From Streptomyces venezuelae (lineage in GTDB: Bacteria > Actinomycetota > Actinomycetes > Streptomycetales > Streptomycetaceae), in contig NZ_CP029190.1 in NCBI RefSeq assembly GCF_008642295.1, positions 6,989,501 to 7,053,500 of the forward strand: a DNA stretch of 64,000 nt. The letters run 5' to 3'. The translations under genes and the position numbers were made by a program. Positions 8,919 to 17,242 of this stretch are shown one piece after another. The notes beneath the pieces were generated by a model. The model made no database searches and was not told the DNA's origin. It saw only the letters and a program-made list of their open reading frames with translations. Every line of letters begins with the position of its first letter. Positions within the stretch are counted from its first letter, which is position 1.

Positions 8919-9959
8919 GTGAAGAAGAGCGTCACACAACTCGCCGACGGCCGTGAGCTGATCTACTACGACGCGGCGGACAGCACCGCCGTACGGGGCC
9001 ACGACCCCGACCTCCGGCCGCTGGACCGCGTCGACAGCAGCCCCGAACTCCGCCGCGACCCGGCCACCGGCGACTGGATCACCATCGCCGCCCACCGCCA
9101 GGCCCGCACCTACCATCCGCCCGCCGACCAGTGCCCCCTGTGCCCCGCACGGGACGGCAGGCTCGGCGAGATCCCGGCCGCCGACTACGAGGTCGTGGTC
9201 TTCGAGAACCGCTTCCCCTCCCTGGCCGGCCCGGCGGGCCGCTGCGAGGTGGTCTGTTTCACCCCCGAGCACGAGGCGGGCTTCGGCGATCTGACCCCGG
9301 CCCGGGCCCGGCTGGTCCTGGACGCCTGGACCGACCGCACCGCGCAGCTGTCCGCCCTCCCCGGCGTCGAGCAGGTGTACTGCTTCGAGAACCGGGGCGC
9401 CGAGATCGGGGTGACGCTCGCCCACCCGCACGGCCAGATCTACGCCTTCACCACGCCCCCGCCGCGCACCGTGAAGATGGCCGCCGCCGCGACCGCCCAC
9501 CGCGCCGCCACCGGCCGCAACCTCTTCGAGGACCTGCTCGCCGAGGCCCGGGCCGCCACGGACCGCGTGGTCACGGCCGGGGAGCACTGGACGGCCTTCG
9601 TCCCGTACGCCGCCCGCTGGCCGTACGAGGTGCATCTCTACCCGCACCGCCGGGTCCCCGACCTGACCTGCCTCACCGAGGCCGAACGGGCCGAGTTCCC
9701 CGGCCTCTACCTGGACCTGCTGCGGCGCTTCGACCGGCTGTTCGGCCGAACGGAACCCACCCCCTACATCTCCGCCTGGCACCAGGCCCCCGCCACCGCC
9801 CCCGGCGGCTCCGAACTCGCCCTGCACCTGGAGCTGTTCACCGTCCGGCGGACCGCGGAGAAGCTCAAGTACCTGGCCGGCACCGAATCCGGCATGGAAG
9901 CCTTCATCAACGACGTGGCGCCCGAGACGGCCGCCCGGCAGCTTCGGGAGTCCGTATGA
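8919..9959 (+). CDS. galT: Galactose-1-phosphate uridylyltransferase
   Basis: A 346-residue HIT-superfamily enzyme that swaps UMP between UDP-glucose and galactose-1-phosphate in the Leloir pathway. The active-site motif is seen as GVTLAHPHGQIYAF (the first His of HPH is followed by the UMP-accepting His). The metal-binding CPLC pair is present near residue 70 (QCPLCPARDG), together with VVFENRFPSL and the C-terminal HLELFTVRRTAEKLKYLAGTE. The start is GTG 8919, directly after the TCTTG repeats and without a good ribosome-binding site. The stop overlaps the galK ATG. Length matches actinobacterial GalT. Confidence 0.95.
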   Translation: MKKSVTQLADGRELIYYDAADSTAVRGHDPDLRPLDRVDSSPELRRDPATGDWITIAAHRQARTYHPPADQCPLCPARDGRLGEIPAADYEVVVFENRFPSLAGPAGRCEVVCFTPEHEAGFGDLTPARARLVLDAWTDRTAQLSALPGVEQVYCFENRGAEIGVTLAHPHGQIYAFTTPPPRTVKMAAAATAHRAATGRNLFEDLLAEARAATDRVVTAGEHWTAFVPYAARWPYEVHLYPHRRVPDLTCLTEAERAEFPGLYLDLLRRFDRLFGRTEPTPYISAWHQAPATAPGGSELALHLELFTVRRTAEKLKYLAGTESGMEAFINDVAPETAARQLRESV

Positions 9960-11161
9960 ACCCGGCCCACGAGACGGCCCACGACCCGGCCCACGAGACG
10001 GCCGGCGGCGCGGCCGGCACCACGGCCGACGCCTTCCACCGCGTGTACGGCACCCACGCGGACGGCGTCTGGGCGGCGCCGGGCCGGGTCAACCTGATCG
10101 GCGAACACACCGACTACAACGACGGGTTCGCGCTCCCCATGGCCCTGCCGCAGGCCACCCGGGTGGCCGCCCGCCGCCGCGGGGACGGCCGGCTGCGCCT
10201 GCACAGCGACCGGTTCGACGCAGGAGTGGTCGAACTGGAGGTGGCAGCCCTGGCCCCGGGCGCGGTCCCCGGCTGGGCCCGCTACCCGGCCGGAGTGGTC
10301 TGGGCGCTGGCCGAGGCCGGCCATCCGGTCGGCGGCGGCGCCGACCTGCACGTGGACAGCACCGTCCCCACCGGGGCCGGCCTGTCCTCCTCGGCCGCCC
10401 TGGAATGCGCCGTCGCCGTGGCCTTCGACGAGCTGTACGGACTGGGCCTGACCCGGCCCGAACTCGCCCGGACCGCCCAGCGCGCGGAGAACGCCTTCGC
10501 CGGGGTGCCCTGCGGGATCATGGACCAGATGGCCTCCCTCTGCTGCACCGAGGGCGCCGCCCTGTTCCTCGACAGCCGCACCCTCGGCCACCACCGGGTG
10601 CCGTTCGACCTGGCCGGCCACGGCCTGCGGCTGCTGGTCATCGACACCCGGGTCCAGCACGACCTGGCCGACGGGGCGTACGCGGGTCTGCGGGCCGGCT
10701 GCGAACGGGCGGCGGCCCTGCTCGGCCTGACCGCCCTCCGCGACCTGCCGGCCGAGGAACTGCCCGCCGCCCTGACCGCCCTGCCGGCCGAGCTGGCCCC
10801 GCTGGTCCGCCATGTGGTCACCGAGAACGCCCGGGTCACCGAGGCCGTGGACCGGCTGAGCGCCGGCAACCCGGCCGCCCTCGGTCCCCTCCTCACCGCC
10901 GGCCACGCCTCCCTCCGCGACGACTACCGGGTGAGCTGCCCCGAAACCGACCTCGCCGTCGACACCGCCGTCGCCGCCGGCGCCCTGGGCGCCCGGATGA
11001 CGGGCGGCGGCTTCGGCGGGTCCGTCATCGCCCTCACCCCGGAAGACCGCGCCGACCGGGTGGCCGCAGCCGTCACCGCGGCCTTCGCCGCCGCCGGATA
11101 CGGCCCCCCGGCCCTCCTCACCGCCACCCCCTCGGCGGGCGCCGGCCGGCTCGCCGGATGA
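9956..11161 (+). CDS. galK: Galactokinase
   Basis: A 401-residue GHMP-superfamily kinase that phosphorylates galactose to galactose-1-phosphate. The galactokinase signature GRVNLIGEHTDYNDGF is at about residues 43-58, the GHMP ATP loop is PTGAGLSSSAALE, and the C-terminal GHMP motif is GARMTGGGFGGSVIAL. ATG overlaps the galT stop (ATGA). The first 20 residues carry a short duplicated His/Glu-rich motif (PAHETAHDPAHETAGG) upstream of the normal family start. The reading frame allows no closer strong start, so it is kept, but a later start cannot be excluded. Confidence 0.95.
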   Translation: MNPAHETAHDPAHETAGGAAGTTADAFHRVYGTHADGVWAAPGRVNLIGEHTDYNDGFALPMALPQATRVAARRRGDGRLRLHSDRFDAGVVELEVAALAPGAVPGWARYPAGVVWALAEAGHPVGGGADLHVDSTVPTGAGLSSSAALECAVAVAFDELYGLGLTRPELARTAQRAENAFAGVPCGIMDQMASLCCTEGAALFLDSRTLGHHRVPFDLAGHGLRLLVIDTRVQHDLADGAYAGLRAGCERAAALLGLTALRDLPAEELPAALTALPAELAPLVRHVVTENARVTEAVDRLSAGNPAALGPLLTAGHASLRDDYRVSCPETDLAVDTAVAAGALGARMTGGGFGGSVIALTPEDRADRVAAAVTAAFAAAGYGPPALLTATPSAGAGRLAG

Positions 11162-11212
11162 GGGGTGTCCGCCGCCGTGCGGGCACCCGACCGGTGAGGC
11201 ATGCTCGGGAAC

Positions 11213-12064
11213 ATGACCGACCCGAGTGACGCGGTCGAAGCCGACCGAGCCCTGAAGAGCAAGCACCGAGCGATGTGGGCGCTGGGCGACTACCCCGCCT
11301 TGGCCTCCCGCCTCATCCCCGAACTGGGCACCGTACTGACCCGCGCCTGCGGGGTGAAGGGCGGCCAGCGGGTGCTCGACGTCGCCGCCGGGTCGGGCAA
11401 CGCCGCCATCCCGGCGGCGCAGGCCGGCGCCCATGTGGTGGCCTCCGACCTCACCCCCGAGCTGCTGGAGACCGGCCGCCAACTGGCCGGGGAGGCGGGG
11501 GTGAGCCTCGAATGGCGGGAGGCGGACGCGGAGGCCCTGCCCTTCGGTGACGGAGTCTTCGACACCGTCATGTCCTGCGTCGGGGTGATGTTCGCACCGC
11601 ACCACCAGGCCGCCGCCGACGAACTCGTCCGGGTCTGCCGCCCCGGCGGCACCATCGGCCTGATCAACTGGACCCCGCAGGGGTTCATCGGCCAGATGTT
11701 CGCCACCATGAAGCCGTTCGCACCCCCGCCGCCGCCCGGCGCGCAGCCGCCGCCGCTCTGGGGCACCGAAGACCATGTACGCAAGCTGCTCGGCGACCGG
11801 GTCACCGACGTGGCAGCCCGGACCCGGACCGTCCGGGTGGACCGCTTCGGGCGGCCCGAGGAGTTCCGCGAGTTCTTCAAGGCCTGTTACGGGCCCACCA
11901 TCGCGGTGTACAAGCACCTCGCCGACCAGCCCGAGCAAGTGGCCGCCCTGGACGAGGAACTGGCCGCGCTCGCCGACCGGAACCTCGGTGAGGACGGCAT
12001 GGAGTGGGAGTACCTGCTGGTGACCGCCCGCCGGGCCGGCCGGCCCGGAACCGGGCCGGAGTAA
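11213..12064 (+). CDS. SAM-dependent methyltransferase, class I
   Basis: A 283-residue methyltransferase. Motif I for AdoMet binding reads VLDVAAGSGNAAIPAAQAGAHVVASDLTPE; the acidic post-I and ALPFGDGVFDTVMSCVGVMFAPHH segments are typical of the UbiE/COQ5-like class. The substrate is not recognisable. ATG 11213 was chosen because MTDPSDAVEADRALKSKHRAMW looks like the family start; an in-frame ATG at 11201 gives four more residues. A Pro-rich loop (FAPPPPPGAQPPPLWG) lies about two-thirds along. It is 51 bases from galK and may be read through from the gal operon, but a galactose role is not supported. Confidence 0.85.
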   Translation: MTDPSDAVEADRALKSKHRAMWALGDYPALASRLIPELGTVLTRACGVKGGQRVLDVAAGSGNAAIPAAQAGAHVVASDLTPELLETGRQLAGEAGVSLEWREADAEALPFGDGVFDTVMSCVGVMFAPHHQAAADELVRVCRPGGTIGLINWTPQGFIGQMFATMKPFAPPPPPGAQPPPLWGTEDHVRKLLGDRVTDVAARTRTVRVDRFGRPEEFREFFKACYGPTIAVYKHLADQPEQVAALDEELAALADRNLGEDGMEWEYLLVTARRAGRPGTGPE

Positions 12065-12177
12065 CGTTAAGTCCCGTCACCACGAGCCGAGTTCGGACGT
12101 GGCGGGAAAGTGAGGACACGCTCACCAACGAGTGACGGTCCCCGGTAGCACTGCGCCGCACGGCCAGGGTGGTCACC

Positions 12178-12825
12178 ATGATCACCCATGCTCTGCGGCG
12201 CCCTGCCGTCGTCCTGGCCGCGGTCCTGGCCGCCGCCCTCCTCCAGCCCGCCTCCGCCGAGGCCACCATCACCACCCGGCCGGTCGCGGCGGCCGGCCCG
12301 CTGATGGCCCCGGCCGCGCCCGCGAACTCCTGCCCGCGGGTCACCGACCACCTCTTCCCGGCCGCCGACCCGCGCGTGGACCTCACCCGCATCACGCCCT
12401 CGCCGTCCTGGCGGATCAACTGCAAGCAGCTCTACCGCGCGGACAGCCGGCCGCCGGCCGTGGTCTTCGAGGAGGGCTTCCACCCCCGGGACACCGTGAA
12501 CGGCCAGTACGACCTGGAGCAGTACGTCCTGGTCAACCAGCCGTCCCCGTACGTCTCCACCACCTACGATCACGACCTCTACAAGACCTGGTGGAAGAGC
12601 GGCTGGAACTACTACATCGACGCCCCCGGCGGAGTGGACGTCAACCAGACCATCGGCGACACCCACAAGTGGGCCTCGCAGGTGGAGGTCGCCTTCCCCG
12701 GCGGCATCGCCCGCTCGTTCATCGTCGGGGTCTGTCCGGTCGACAAGACGACCAAGACCGAGATCATGGAGAAGTGCCAGGACAACCCGCACTACCAGCC
12801 CTGGCGCAACGACTTCCCCGGCTGA
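12178..12825 (+). CDS. Secreted mono-ADP-ribosyltransferase, scabin/ScARP (pierisin-like) type
   Basis: A 215-residue exported protein with a signal peptide (LRRPAVVLAAVLAAALLQPASA) from ATG 12178 behind AGGGTGG; GTG 12169 is an alternative. The catalytic triad pattern of R-S-E ADP-ribosyltransferases is visible: Arg87 in LYRADSRPP, the STS-like S127-T128-T129 in YVSTTYDHD, and Gln168-x-Glu170 in SQVEVAFPGG. In the known scabin, ScARP and pierisin enzymes Gln-x-Glu goes with modification of guanine bases in DNA rather than of protein. The C-terminal GVCPVDKTTKTEI...KCQDNPHYQPWR also matches that group as I remember it. Cysteines at about 52, 82, 186 and 200 could form disulfides. No immunity-like gene is adjacent. 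Confidence 0.82.
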   Translation: MITHALRRPAVVLAAVLAAALLQPASAEATITTRPVAAAGPLMAPAAPANSCPRVTDHLFPAADPRVDLTRITPSPSWRINCKQLYRADSRPPAVVFEEGFHPRDTVNGQYDLEQYVLVNQPSPYVSTTYDHDLYKTWWKSGWNYYIDAPGGVDVNQTIGDTHKWASQVEVAFPGGIARSFIVGVCPVDKTTKTEIMEKCQDNPHYQPWRNDFPG

Positions 12826-12864: not shown

Positions 12865-14661
12865 CTAGTGCGTGAGTTCGGCCGCGGCCAGGAACTGGGT
12901 CGCGGCCAGCTCCCCGTACAGCGGGTCGCCCGCCACCAACTCCTCGTGGGTGCCGGTGGCCCGCACCCGGCCGGCCTCCATGACCACGATCCGGTCCGCC
13001 AGGGTCACCGTCGACAGCCGGTGCGCCACCACCAGCACCGTGGTGTCCCGGGCGGCCTCGGCCACCACATCGCGCAGGGCCAGCTCGTTGACCGCGTCCA
13101 GCTGGGAGGTGGCCTCGTCGAGCAGCAGCAGCCGCGGCTTGCGCAGCAGGGCCCGGGCGATCGCCACCCGCTGCCGCTCACCACCCGACAGCGTCGACCC
13201 GCGGTGACCCACCATGCTGTCCAGACCGTCCGGCAGCTTCTTCACCAGGCCGTCCAGCCGGGCCCGGACCAGCACCTCGGCGATCTCCTCCTCGGTGGCG
13301 TGCGGCGAACCCATCAGCAGGTTCTCCCGCAGGGTTCCGGCCAGCACCGGGGCGTCCTGCTCCACATAGCCGATGGCCGCCCGGAGTTCGGTCAGCGGCC
13401 AGTCCCGCACGTCCCGGCCGTCGAGCAGCACCCGGCCGCCGGTCGCCTCGTAGAACCGCTCGATCAGACCGAACACGGTGGTCTTGCCCGCACCCGACGG
13501 ACCGACGAAGGCCGTCATACCGGCCCCCGGAACCTCGAAGCTCACCCCGTGGTGGACGAGCGGCAGCTCCGGCCCGTACCCGAAACGGACGTTCTCGAAC
13601 GTCACCGAGGCCGGGGTGCGCACCGCGCCCGCCGGCTGCACCGTGGGCTCGCCGCCGGTCGGCTCCGTCTCCAGCGCCTCGGCCTCGACGATCCGCGCCA
13701 GCGCTGCCGAGCCCACCTGGTACTGCGAGGCCGCGTCCGCCAGCTTGGAGATGGGGTCGATCAGGTAGAAGAGGAACAGCAGGAAGGCGACCAGGGTGGA
13801 GACGGTTATCTCCCCCGAGGCGACCCGGGCGCCACCGATGCCCAGGACGGCCAGGAAGGACACCTGCACCGACAGACCGATGGAGGGGCCTGCCACCGCC
13901 TGCCACTTCGCCGAGATGACACCGTGCCGCCAGGCGTCCTCCGCCGCGGCCTCCACCCGGGCGGTCTCCCGGGCCTCCGCACCGGAGGCCTTGATGGTCC
14001 GGTAGGCGCCGAAGGCCCGCTCCAGCACGGTCGAGATCTCGCCGACCGCCTCCTGGGCGCGCGCCGAAGCCTTCGCGATCTTCGGGTACACCATGCCGGT
14101 GGCCCCGCCGACCAGCACGATCACGCCGAGGGTCACACCGAGCAGCACCACGTCCATGGCCGCCATCAGCGCCACCGTCGCCAGGAAGGTGAGGCTGCCG
14201 GTCACGGCGGAGACCACCGACTTGGTCGTCACCTCGCGCAGCAGGGTGGTGTCGGAGGTCACCCGCGACATCAGGTCACCCGGCTGGGTGCGCTCCACCT
14301 CCGGGATCCGCAGCCGCAGCAGCCGGCCCACCAGGGTGCGCCGGGCCGCCAGGACCACCGACTCAGCGGTCCGCTCCAGGACGTAGGAGCCGATCGCCTC
14401 GATCAGCGTGCCCAGCACCACCAGCGCCGTCAGCAGCACCAGGACGCCGGCCACCGAATTGCCGTCACCGAGCCGGTCCACCAGGGCCTTCGCGGCCAGC
14501 GGCTGCGCGAGTCCGCTGGCCGCGCCCAGCAGCGAGAAGACCGCGCCCAGTGCCACGGTCCAGCGGTGCGGACGGAAGTGCCGGTACAACGCCTGCCAGT
14601 TCTGTGCCGCGGGCAGCTTCTGCGGGTCCGCGGCCTCCTGCTCCACCACTTGAGAGTTCAT
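12865..14661 (-). CDS. ABC exporter half-transporter (fused membrane and ATPase domains)
   Basis: A 598-residue type I exporter of the MsbA/LmrA class. Residues about 30-320 hold six membrane helices ([26 protein letters not shown] is the first). The ATPase domain has Walker [11 protein letters not shown]-loop [17 protein letters not shown], signature [16 protein letters not shown], Walker [13 protein letters not shown] and H-loop VAHRLSTV, so it should be active. As a half-transporter it would work as a homodimer or with an unlinked partner. It converges on the ADP-ribosyltransferase gene, so the neighbourhood does not reveal the substrate; multidrug or lipid export is the usual assignment. 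Confidence 0.93.
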
Positions 14662-15394: not shown

Positions 15395-17053
15395 TCAGGC
15401 GCGGTGCAGCAGCCTGGTCAGGACCTCCGTCAGGGTCGCCGCCGGGTTCTTCGCCGGGCCCTCGGAGCGCCACGCCACATATCCGTCCGGCCGCACCAGC
15501 ACCGCCCCGTCCGGCTGTACCCCGTGCGCCGCCGCCCAGTCCATGCCCTCCTCGGTACGGAGTTCCGCGTCCGCGCCGCCGCCCATCGTGTGCCCGGCCA
15601 GCCGTACCGACATCTCCCCGGCCACCCGTCCGGCCGCCGCCTGCCACGGCGTACCCGGGCTGCTGAGCAGGACGAACGACCGCTCGTAGAGGTCGAGGCT
15701 GGACATCCGCCCGGCCGGCCCCGTCAGCCACAGGTGCGGGGCCCGGGTGCCGGGCTCGCCGTCCAGCTTCATCCCGGCCGGGATGATCTCCCGGTCCGGG
15801 TCGCCGCCGATGACCGCGCCCTGCGGGTAGCAGTACGCCATCGCGGTCGGCAGCATCCGGCTGTCCTTCCCGGCCTTGCCGCTCGGCCCGCCGGGCACGC
15901 CCGGTGCCCCGGGCAGCGGCGAGTAGCCGGGGTGGTCGTGTTCCACGGACCGGGCCGAGGCCCGCTCGCTGGTGGCCAGTGCCACCGGCCGCCGCTCCTC
16001 CCCGTACGTCTCGAGCAGCTCCGGACCGGCCTCGCCCGCCAGCACCGCGGCAAGCTTCCAGGCCAGGTTGTGCGCGTCCTGGATACCGGTGTTGGACCCG
16101 AACGCCCCCGTGGGCGACATCTCGTGCACGGCGTCGCCCGCCAGGAACACCCGGCCCATCGAGTACCGGTCCGCCACCCGTTCGGCGGCATGCCAGGCCG
16201 CCTTCCCGCCGATCTCCACGTCCAGGTCGGGCACCCCGATGGCACGGCGGATGTGCGCCACGCACCGCTCGTCGGTGAAGTCCTCCATGGTCTCGCCTGT
16301 CTCGGGGTGCCAGGGGGCGTGGAAGACCCAGTTCTGGTCGTTGTCCACCGGCAGCAGCGCACCGTCCGCACCCGGCTTGATCAGGTAGCAGACGATGAAC
16401 CGCAGATCGCCCAGCACCTCGGGCAGCCGGCGCGACCGGAAGGTGATGCTCACGTTGTGGAACAGGTCGCCGTTCCCGGACTGCGGGATGCCCAGCTGCT
16501 CCCGAACCGGGCTGCGCGGCCCGTCCGCCGCGATCAGGTACTGCGCGCGGACCCGGATGTGCTGCCCGCCGTCGCGGTCCTTCACCACGGCGCTGACGCC
16601 GTGGGCGTCCTGGTCGAAGGAGATCAGCTCGGTGGAGAACCGCACGTCGGCGCCGGCCGCCCGGCTCCGTGAGGCCAGCACCGGCTCGATGTTGTTCTGG
16701 CTGCACAGGCACCACCGGGTGGGGCTGAACTTGGCCAGCGCGCCGCCCGGGTCGGTGTTCTCGACCAGCCAGCGGTGGTCCCCGCCGGTCAGCGAGGTGG
16801 CCTGGATCAGACCCTTGTTCTCCTCCAGGACGGCCGCGGCCTGCCGGATGTCCGGCTCTGCGCCGGCCACCCGGAACAGTTCCATCGTCCGGGCGTTGAT
16901 GCCACGGCCACGCGGGTGGGGGGAGACCCCCGCGTGCTTCTCGACCAGCAGATGTCTGATGCCGTGCCGGCTCAGGAACAGCGAGGTGGCGAGCCCCACC
17001 AGGGAGCCGCCCACCACCAGCACGGGCACGTCTACGTCGAACTTCTCTTCCAT
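15395..17053 (-). CDS. FAD-dependent aromatic polyketide hydroxylase, whiE ORFVIII-like
   Basis: A 552-residue class A flavoprotein monooxygenase (TcmG/PgaE-like). The N-terminal FAD motif is VPVLVVGGSLVGLATSLFLSRHG, the DG motif is LIAADGPRSPVREQLG, and the GD motif is VFLAGDAVHEMSPTGAFGSNTGIQDAHNLAWKLA. The C-terminal 120 residues form the thioredoxin-like tail of this class, ending PAATLTEVLTRLLHRA. ATG 17053 (MEEKFDVDVP) is preceded by GGAA. It diverges from the polyketide operon at 17243, the arrangement known for the spore-pigment (whiE) cluster, and would hydroxylate the pigment precursor. Confidence 0.88.
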   Translation of the reverse strand: MEEKFDVDVPVLVVGGSLVGLATSLFLSRHGIRHLLVEKHAGVSPHPRGRGINARTMELFRVAGAEPDIRQAAAVLEENKGLIQATSLTGGDHRWLVENTDPGGALAKFSPTRWCLCSQNNIEPVLASRSRAAGADVRFSTELISFDQDAHGVSAVVKDRDGGQHIRVRAQYLIAADGPRSPVREQLGIPQSGNGDLFHNVSITFRSRRLPEVLGDLRFIVCYLIKPGADGALLPVDNDQNWVFHAPWHPETGETMEDFTDERCVAHIRRAIGVPDLDVEIGGKAAWHAAERVADRYSMGRVFLAGDAVHEMSPTGAFGSNTGIQDAHNLAWKLAAVLAGEAGPELLETYGEERRPVALATSERASARSVEHDHPGYSPLPGAPGVPGGPSGKAGKDSRMLPTAMAYCYPQGAVIGGDPDREIIPAGMKLDGEPGTRAPHLWLTGPAGRMSSLDLYERSFVLLSSPGTPWQAAAGRVAGEMSVRLAGHTMGGGADAELRTEEGMDWAAAHGVQPDGAVLVRPDGYVAWRSEGPAKNPAATLTEVLTRLLHRA

Positions 17054-17242
17054 GGCCTGCTCGGTTCCTTCCCGCGGGGGGTGACCCACCTTGTATGCCC
17101 GCTGACCGGCCGAAGTGCGCCCGCGTTCACCCGCTTGATCTGCATGTGTCGCGTTCTGTGCAGCCTGCGGCAACGATCTGACTCAGGAAGGACTCCAGGC
17201 CTGCGCGTGCCGCGCGGCCACCGTCGCAAGGGAGCGTACGAA
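17054..17242. promoter_or_regulatory. Divergent promoter region of the spore-pigment cluster
   Basis: The 189-base gap between the hydroxylase and the first polyketide-operon gene must hold both divergent promoters. By analogy with S. coelicolor whiE, the hydroxylase promoter would be recognised by a sporulation sigma factor (SigF) and both would fire late in spore formation. I could not pick convincing -35/-10 pairs or an operator by eye. The purine-rich AAGGGA before 17243 is the only obvious translation signal. Confidence 0.4.

Follow-up and report, generated by a model that had tools for sequence, protein, structure and literature searches.

A scabin/ScARP-type mono-ADP-ribosyltransferase gene of Streptomyces venezuelae, its conserved upstream element and the NADAR genes of its hosts

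What is the small, apparently secreted enzyme encoded at positions 12178 to 12825 of a 64,000-nucleotide (nt) stretch of Streptomyces venezuelae DNA (contig NZ_CP029190.1, positions 6,989,501 to 7,053,500; the whole stretch is called the window below), how is its gene controlled, and how is the producer spared? An original prediction, made from the letters of the DNA, had named it a secreted DNA ADP-ribosyltransferase of the scabin/ScARP kind, a rare toxin with no immunity gene beside it, and had left the avoidance of self-damage as a question. Our analysis assigns it, as a new member, to a known family that already has an annotation. The enzyme itself is one more homologue of a studied family, and what is added here is a conserved element upstream of the gene together with a survey of NADAR domains in the genomes of its hosts.

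The identity of the protein, 215 amino acids (aa) long, is given by several searches with scores far above chance. It matches PF22596 (Scabin-like) of Pfam with an E-value of 4.2e-44 and 150 bits against a cut-off of 27, and the ADP-ribosyltransferase equivalog NF041482 of NCBIfam with 349.9 bits against a cut-off of 250. The best match in a sequence search of the PDB is scabin (3.8e-87), followed by the ADP-ribosyltransferase 5zj4 (3.4e-83) and pierisin-1 (5.5e-13), and more weakly by the toxin TreX (1.8e-10) and a mosquitocidal toxin (4.9e-09); we take 5zj4 and 5zj5 to be structures of ScARP, that is SCO5461 of Streptomyces coelicolor. The protein is a close homologue, and very likely an orthologue, of scabin and ScARP. 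Conservation was read from an alignment of 103 rows, namely 102 loci and the window sequence once again, and the features of the gene are as follows.

12178..12825, + strand: scabin/ScARP-type mono-ADP-ribosyltransferase gene, intact, 215 aa, with ATG at 12178 and a stop codon ending at 12825
12166..12169, + strand: AGGG, possible ribosome-binding site 8 nt before the ATG at 12178, by inspection
12178..12258, + strand: probable Sec signal peptide, residues 1-27, judged by inspection only
12436..12438, + strand: Arg87 codon (scabin Arg77), NAD binding (PMC7828395), 103 of 103 rows
12556..12564, + strand: Ser127-Thr128-Thr129 codons (scabin STT), NAD-site scaffold, from the alignment
12589..12591, + strand: Trp138 codon (scabin Trp128, ScARP Trp132), PN-loop, 103 of 103 rows
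12679..12687, + strand: Gln168-Val169-Glu170 codons, guanine recognition and catalytic glutamate (PMC7828395), Gln and Glu in 103 of 103 rows

An alternative in-frame GTG exists at 12169, and the ATG at 12178 is favoured by the M-I beginning common to most relatives shown. The signature of DNA-acting mono-ADP-ribosyltransferases, given in PMC7828395 as R, N, STT, W (PN), W (ARTT) and QxE, is complete in the alignments (R87, N120, S127-T-T, W138, W165, Q168 and E170), and the R87, S127-T-T and Q168-x-E170 pattern first noticed in this open reading frame is present as described. The serine of STT is found in all 103 rows, the second position is Thr in 102, and the third is Thr in 71 and Ser in 32; the count for Trp138 includes nine rows that fill just one of positions 138 and 139, where alignment A1 sets the gap at 138. 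The structure predicted from 54 sequences is good and has the ADP-ribosyltransferase (ART) fold, which superposes on scabin and ScARP and supports the active-site residues; an earlier prediction from 23 sequences was poor (pLDDT 65), and its Foldseek matches were nonetheless scabin and 5zj4/5zj5. The four cysteines are conserved, and the relatives point to disulfides C52-C82 and C186-C200. The ART domain is the only matching part, and the chain ends 45 residues past E170. At the N-terminus an Arg-Arg pair, a hydrophobic stretch and A25-S26-A27 can be seen by eye, which makes the export that had been predicted probable; a secretion signal of 29 residues is given for scabin in PMC7828395. We hold with high confidence that the protein would be a single-domain guanine-specific mono-ADP-ribosyltransferase, its export and chemistry being read across from its relatives. 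In the mechanism we propose, it would be synthesized with a Sec signal and exported, fold outside the cell with the two disulfides, bind NAD+ through R87, S127 and E170, and stack guanine by W138 and W165 while Q168 recognises N2/N3, and ADP-ribose would then pass to the N2 of guanine, whether in a nucleoside, a nucleotide, DNA or RNA.

Regarding the distribution of the family, a PF22596 match at E <= 0.001 occurs in 94 of 246 Streptomyces genomes, and a compact, full scabin-type copy (at least 126 bits) in 54 of them by our own count from the table, the remaining genomes having weaker matches which are often partial or lie inside much longer open frames. Scabin-like domains within longer open frames were seen in many Streptomyces genomes (e.g. 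L126 and L132), and these may be polymorphic toxins. A class-wide draw gave matches in 19 of 394 genomes, 16 of them Streptomyces, and in 4 of 137 genera. Of 7995 candidates scored in a protein search, 659 matched at E <= 0.001, and among the 120 matches listed the named ones are mostly Streptomyces "ADP-ribosyltransferase". The family is patchy, in agreement with PMC5087735, which describes the scabin-type gene as absent from most Streptomyces, yet it is not rare as had been supposed.

The control of the gene brings us to its upstream DNA, in which a single common block appears when ten loci of the window clade are aligned.

12115..12135 (conserved stretch to 12142), + strand: conserved upstream element GACACGCTCACCAACGAGTGA, candidate operator, 63 nt before the start codon

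The family consensus from 71 non-redundant sites is GACACGCC-NCC-(G)NN-CGRGTGA-N-G-N-TCC. Its core carries about 2 bits per base, the preceding 20 bases 0.14-0.63 and the following ones 0.2-1.9, part of the information after the core being base composition. The element was found in 100 of the 102 loci at up to three mismatches (in 87 at no more than one, with a spacer free to vary by one base) and in none of 510 shuffled regions, and only L025 and L098 gave no match at that threshold. It stands 61, 62 or 63 nt from the M-I start codon in 88 of the 100, the distance being another or not found in 12. Among seven window-clade loci, picked from the ten against near-copies with L005 and L007 still sharing some neighbours, mean identity is 84% over the first 28 nt, 52% over the next 32 nt and 28% over the preceding 40 nt. 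Loci with otherwise dissimilar flanks have the element in common, and so do the Actinoplanes loci L066 and L070.

Searches of whole genomes bear on how specific this block is. With a looser pattern the window copy is the sole exact match in its own genome, and 22 more sites appear at one or two mismatches, the total of 23 against 19 for a reversed control revealing no regulon there. Within the 64-kb window, one match at up to two mismatches was found against 0.62 expected, and at least one occurred in 49 of 100 shuffles; because such a single match count proves nothing, the case for the element rests on its conservation across loci. An exact pattern of stricter form, from which the window copy departs by one base, has 32 matches in 32 of the 246 genomes against 4 for the reversed control, and by coordinate comparison 26 of these directly precede a compact scabin gene, the other 6 being elsewhere; the strict match is missing at the gene in 28 of the 54 compact carriers. 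The combined element is nearly gene-specific.

As to the factor that may read it, the left box includes GACAC (12115-12119), which is the WhiA core, but this likeness is weak because GACAC is frequent in streptomycete genomes (PMC3781837). The right box CGRGTGA resembles the BldM half-site CGgGTGA of PMC4125116. Against the BldM-WhiI Group II site described there, TGnnCCGnnCGGGTGA, the window reads GCTCACCAACGAGTGA at 12120-12135, with the right half close and the left half absent, and the family consensus mostly keeps CCGnnCGRGTGA and not TG; the 16-bp palindrome of BldM Group I, TCACcCgnncGgGTGA (PMC4125116), is likewise not found in the window element. The window copy can be written TCAC-CAACGA-GTGA, and some loci of its clade carry a 14-bp TCACC-NNNN-GGTGA. 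A one-base change of the spacer in 18 of the 100 loci argues against one rigid dimer site. Since the gene keeps its element through changes of place, the simplest reading would be that the factor is encoded at another place and shared by the hosts. RNAalifold on 78 sequences gave no structure of a leader RNA, and its column-shuffled control also gave zero, so this search has little power. We found no report of the element in the literature consulted on scabin, SCO5461, ScARP, BldM/WhiI and WhiA, which is no proof of absence.

How the producer avoids self-damage is not wholly an open question, since the guanine mark of ScARP on DNA is reversed in vitro by NADAR hydrolases, as described in PMC11543638 and PMC11125620, and the genome of our strain has such domains. 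The mark on RNA is likewise reported to be removed by NADAR (PMC11833690), whereas the macrodomain hydrolase SCO6735 is reported inactive on the ScARP mark (PMC9411070). PMC11543638 already put forward the idea that NADARs may serve as protection in organisms that have such enzymes. A NADAR match was found in 233 of the 246 Streptomyces genomes. The own genome has one full NADAR of about 214 aa, about 4.85 Mb from the scabin-type gene on the same contig, in which E, K and E, compared by eye under an assumed chain identity and numbering offset, fit the named mechanistic residues; a second one is a partial domain with DUF7638 and DUF7639 in 351 aa (L112, 691-1746, + strand). The genomes of L003, L005 and L006 also have partial NADAR matches, which lie in open frames of 381-502 aa. 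Thirteen named carrier genomes were searched, and 11 have a NADAR match, that of L071 being just a short fragment. As for an immunity gene beside the enzyme, none is present in the window, as had been noticed; the gaps around the gene are 113 nt upstream and 39 nt to the convergent ABC transporter gene, and no fitting neighbour was seen in 73 loci among open reading frames of at least 100 aa. Export, expression timed through the element and NADAR as a back-up would probably spare the producer, a judgement that stands apart from our confidence in identity and chemistry.

Several points weigh against this overall picture. NADAR is found in 53 of the 54 compact carriers and in 180 of the 192 other Streptomyces, and this co-occurrence does not support it as a specific partner of the enzyme; it is not obligatory either, with no match in the carriers L063, L067 and G028, though these are draft genomes. 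A NADAR of E. coli, YbiA, is assigned a riboflavin role in PMC11543638. Moreover, the proposed DNA face differs from that of scabin at three positions (Tyr129 to Trp139, Lys181 to Thr191 and Arg183 to Lys193), so another substrate may be preferred to DNA, and the scabin mutant table of PMC7828395 has no Tyr-to-Trp change at 129. A divergent substrate, in which free guanosine nucleotides or RNA would be preferred over DNA, agrees with the kcat of the scabin transferase falling from 186 in the wild type to 74 in K181A and 58 in R183A (PMC7828395), and with the reported action of ScARP on guanosine, guanine mononucleotides and RNA (PMC11833690), for which reason the name of a DNA enzyme, right as to the family, was too narrow. 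On the other hand, these residues are widespread, Trp139 in 63 and Lys193 in 95 of the 103 rows, and scabin with A, H, K or T at Y129 kept a kcat of 90-132 of 186, with 40 for Y129E and Y129F not determined, while another passage of the same paper, PMC7828395, calls the Ala variant severely compromised. We consider a preference of this kind rather unlikely. Separately, Ser167 of the window protein (codon 12676-12678) presumably corresponds to Asp161 of ScARP under our own +6 offset mapping; Ser is also found in L002, L003, L004, L006 and L009 of the window clade, and the other rows of A1 mostly have Asp. In PMC5087735, Asp161 is the reported auto-ADP-ribosylation site of ScARP.

The sequence does not decide between a weapon, a developmental enzyme and an enzyme with both roles. 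Release against competing microbes, plants or soil animals is suggested by the kinship with pierisin, the mosquitocidal toxin and the Rhs toxin TreX, by the probable secretion judged by eye, and by the patchy, place-changing gene with Actinoplanes copies amid Streptomyces rows, as accessory weapons often are; PMC9411070 and PMC11833690 also lean toward a secreted toxin. Nevertheless, a delivery or receptor-binding domain is absent, and ScARP was less toxic than DarT1 in the expression work of PMC11543638. PMC10037901 and PMC11479980 count scabin among the factors of potato scab species that are related to virulence or pathogenicity, but its role in virulence is called unknown in PMC7828395, and the word toxin in the original prediction is thus unproven; we put this role not far short of an even chance. 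An endogenous enzyme acting on extracellular nucleotides or on the own lysing hyphae, tied by the element to the timing of sporulation and antibiotics, is possible, and we think it less likely than not. It would fit the changes in morphological differentiation and antibiotic production reported on disruption of SCO5461 (Szirak 2012, cited by PMC5087735 and PMC11833690), the presence of GACAC with CGRGTGA in the element, and the weak binding of MtrA to a probe from upstream of sco5461, which was shifted at the highest amounts only (PMC5650626). A compact copy in so few of the Streptomyces genomes would, however, be odd for a core function, and the incomplete BldM sites and the commonness of GACAC speak against it as well.

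Of the genes around the enzyme, we do not think the two flanking ones, for a methyltransferase and an ABC transporter, part of the system.

11201..12064, + strand: methyltransferase gene, no match in 101 other scabin loci at E 1e-15
12865..14661, - strand: ABC transporter gene, convergent, from the domain scan
within 8919-11161, upstream of the scabin-type gene: galT (PF01087, PF02744), unrelated to the finding
within 8919-11161, upstream of the scabin-type gene: galK-like gene, named by eye, unrelated to the finding
15395-17173, - strand: FAD-dependent aromatic hydroxylase-like monooxygenase (PF01494, PF21274), beyond the ABC transporter

Seven neighbours, some named by eye (LacI-type regulator, galT, galK, methyltransferase, ABC transporter, FAD monooxygenase and a further open reading frame), were compared with the 101 loci at the same threshold, and the single match was a partial one of 48% identity to the ABC transporter in L067; this is a lower bound, as 29 loci reach only about 1.5 kb per side and some of the others stop at contig ends. 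In a set of 73 loci (72 named and the window), at least one of six neighbour families is present in 60, among them an L,D-transpeptidase with Ig domains, an enoyl-CoA hydratase, a HATPase protein, a beta-propeller protein and a MerR regulator; several of the loci are incomplete, and an isolated match, for instance the MerR of L070, may be a paralogue. The window and 12 other loci have none of the six, and no family of open reading frames of at least 100 aa is common to all 73, the most frequent being in 51, with several loci ending at contig ends. The tree of the 73 proteins, rooted at the midpoint only, puts the window in a set of 13 rows (support 100/93), of which 11 are outside the common neighbourhood. 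Surroundings vary even within the clade: L005, L007, L008 and L009 share some genes, L003 and L006 others, and L002, L004, L071 and the window none. Three Actinoplanes sequences (L066, L068 and L070) group at 100/94 amid Streptomyces rows, which suggests transfer between genera or families. An empty-site comparison with 6 of 30 methyltransferase loci and 29 other ABC-transporter loci showed no second window neighbour in their short flanks. The window gene lies 0.52 Mb from one end of the 7.53-Mb contig.

A conserved, nearly gene-specific cis element is a direct handle on the control of ScARP-type enzymes, whose role and timing are unsettled, and as nearly every Streptomyces genome searched has a NADAR, the self-protection suggested in PMC11543638 can be tested. 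A bolder view would be that scabin/ScARP genes are self-contained moving modules with a dedicated two-box WhiA-like/BldM-like operator, kept at a near-fixed distance even in Actinoplanes, for timed release in development, with the genus-wide NADAR as antidote; taken as a whole, we think this improbable.

Among the known systems, DarT1 of the DarT1-NADAR toxin-antitoxin pair and ScARP are reported to give the same guanine N2 product (PMC11543638), but DarT1 belongs to another ART subfamily, and with no adjacent NADAR or other antitoxin candidate and 39 nt to the next gene, a toxin-antitoxin of this type was rejected. TreX, the C-terminal toxin of an Rhs protein of Xenorhabdus, was solved with its immunity protein TriX, and none adjoins the window gene. 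Pierisin-1 of the cabbage butterfly is 30% identical, and the window protein was rejected as a pierisin proper, being without the C-terminal ricin B-like part for binding and targeting. From ScARP it differs in Ser167, where by the +6 mapping ScARP presumably has Asp161. Scabin of Streptomyces scabies (5daz, 5ewk), with Tyr129, Lys181 and Arg183 in place of Trp139, Thr191 and Lys193, is 71-72% identical in the structural alignment and shares with the window protein the single domain, the catalytic signature, the positions of the cysteines and, probably, the secretion signal.
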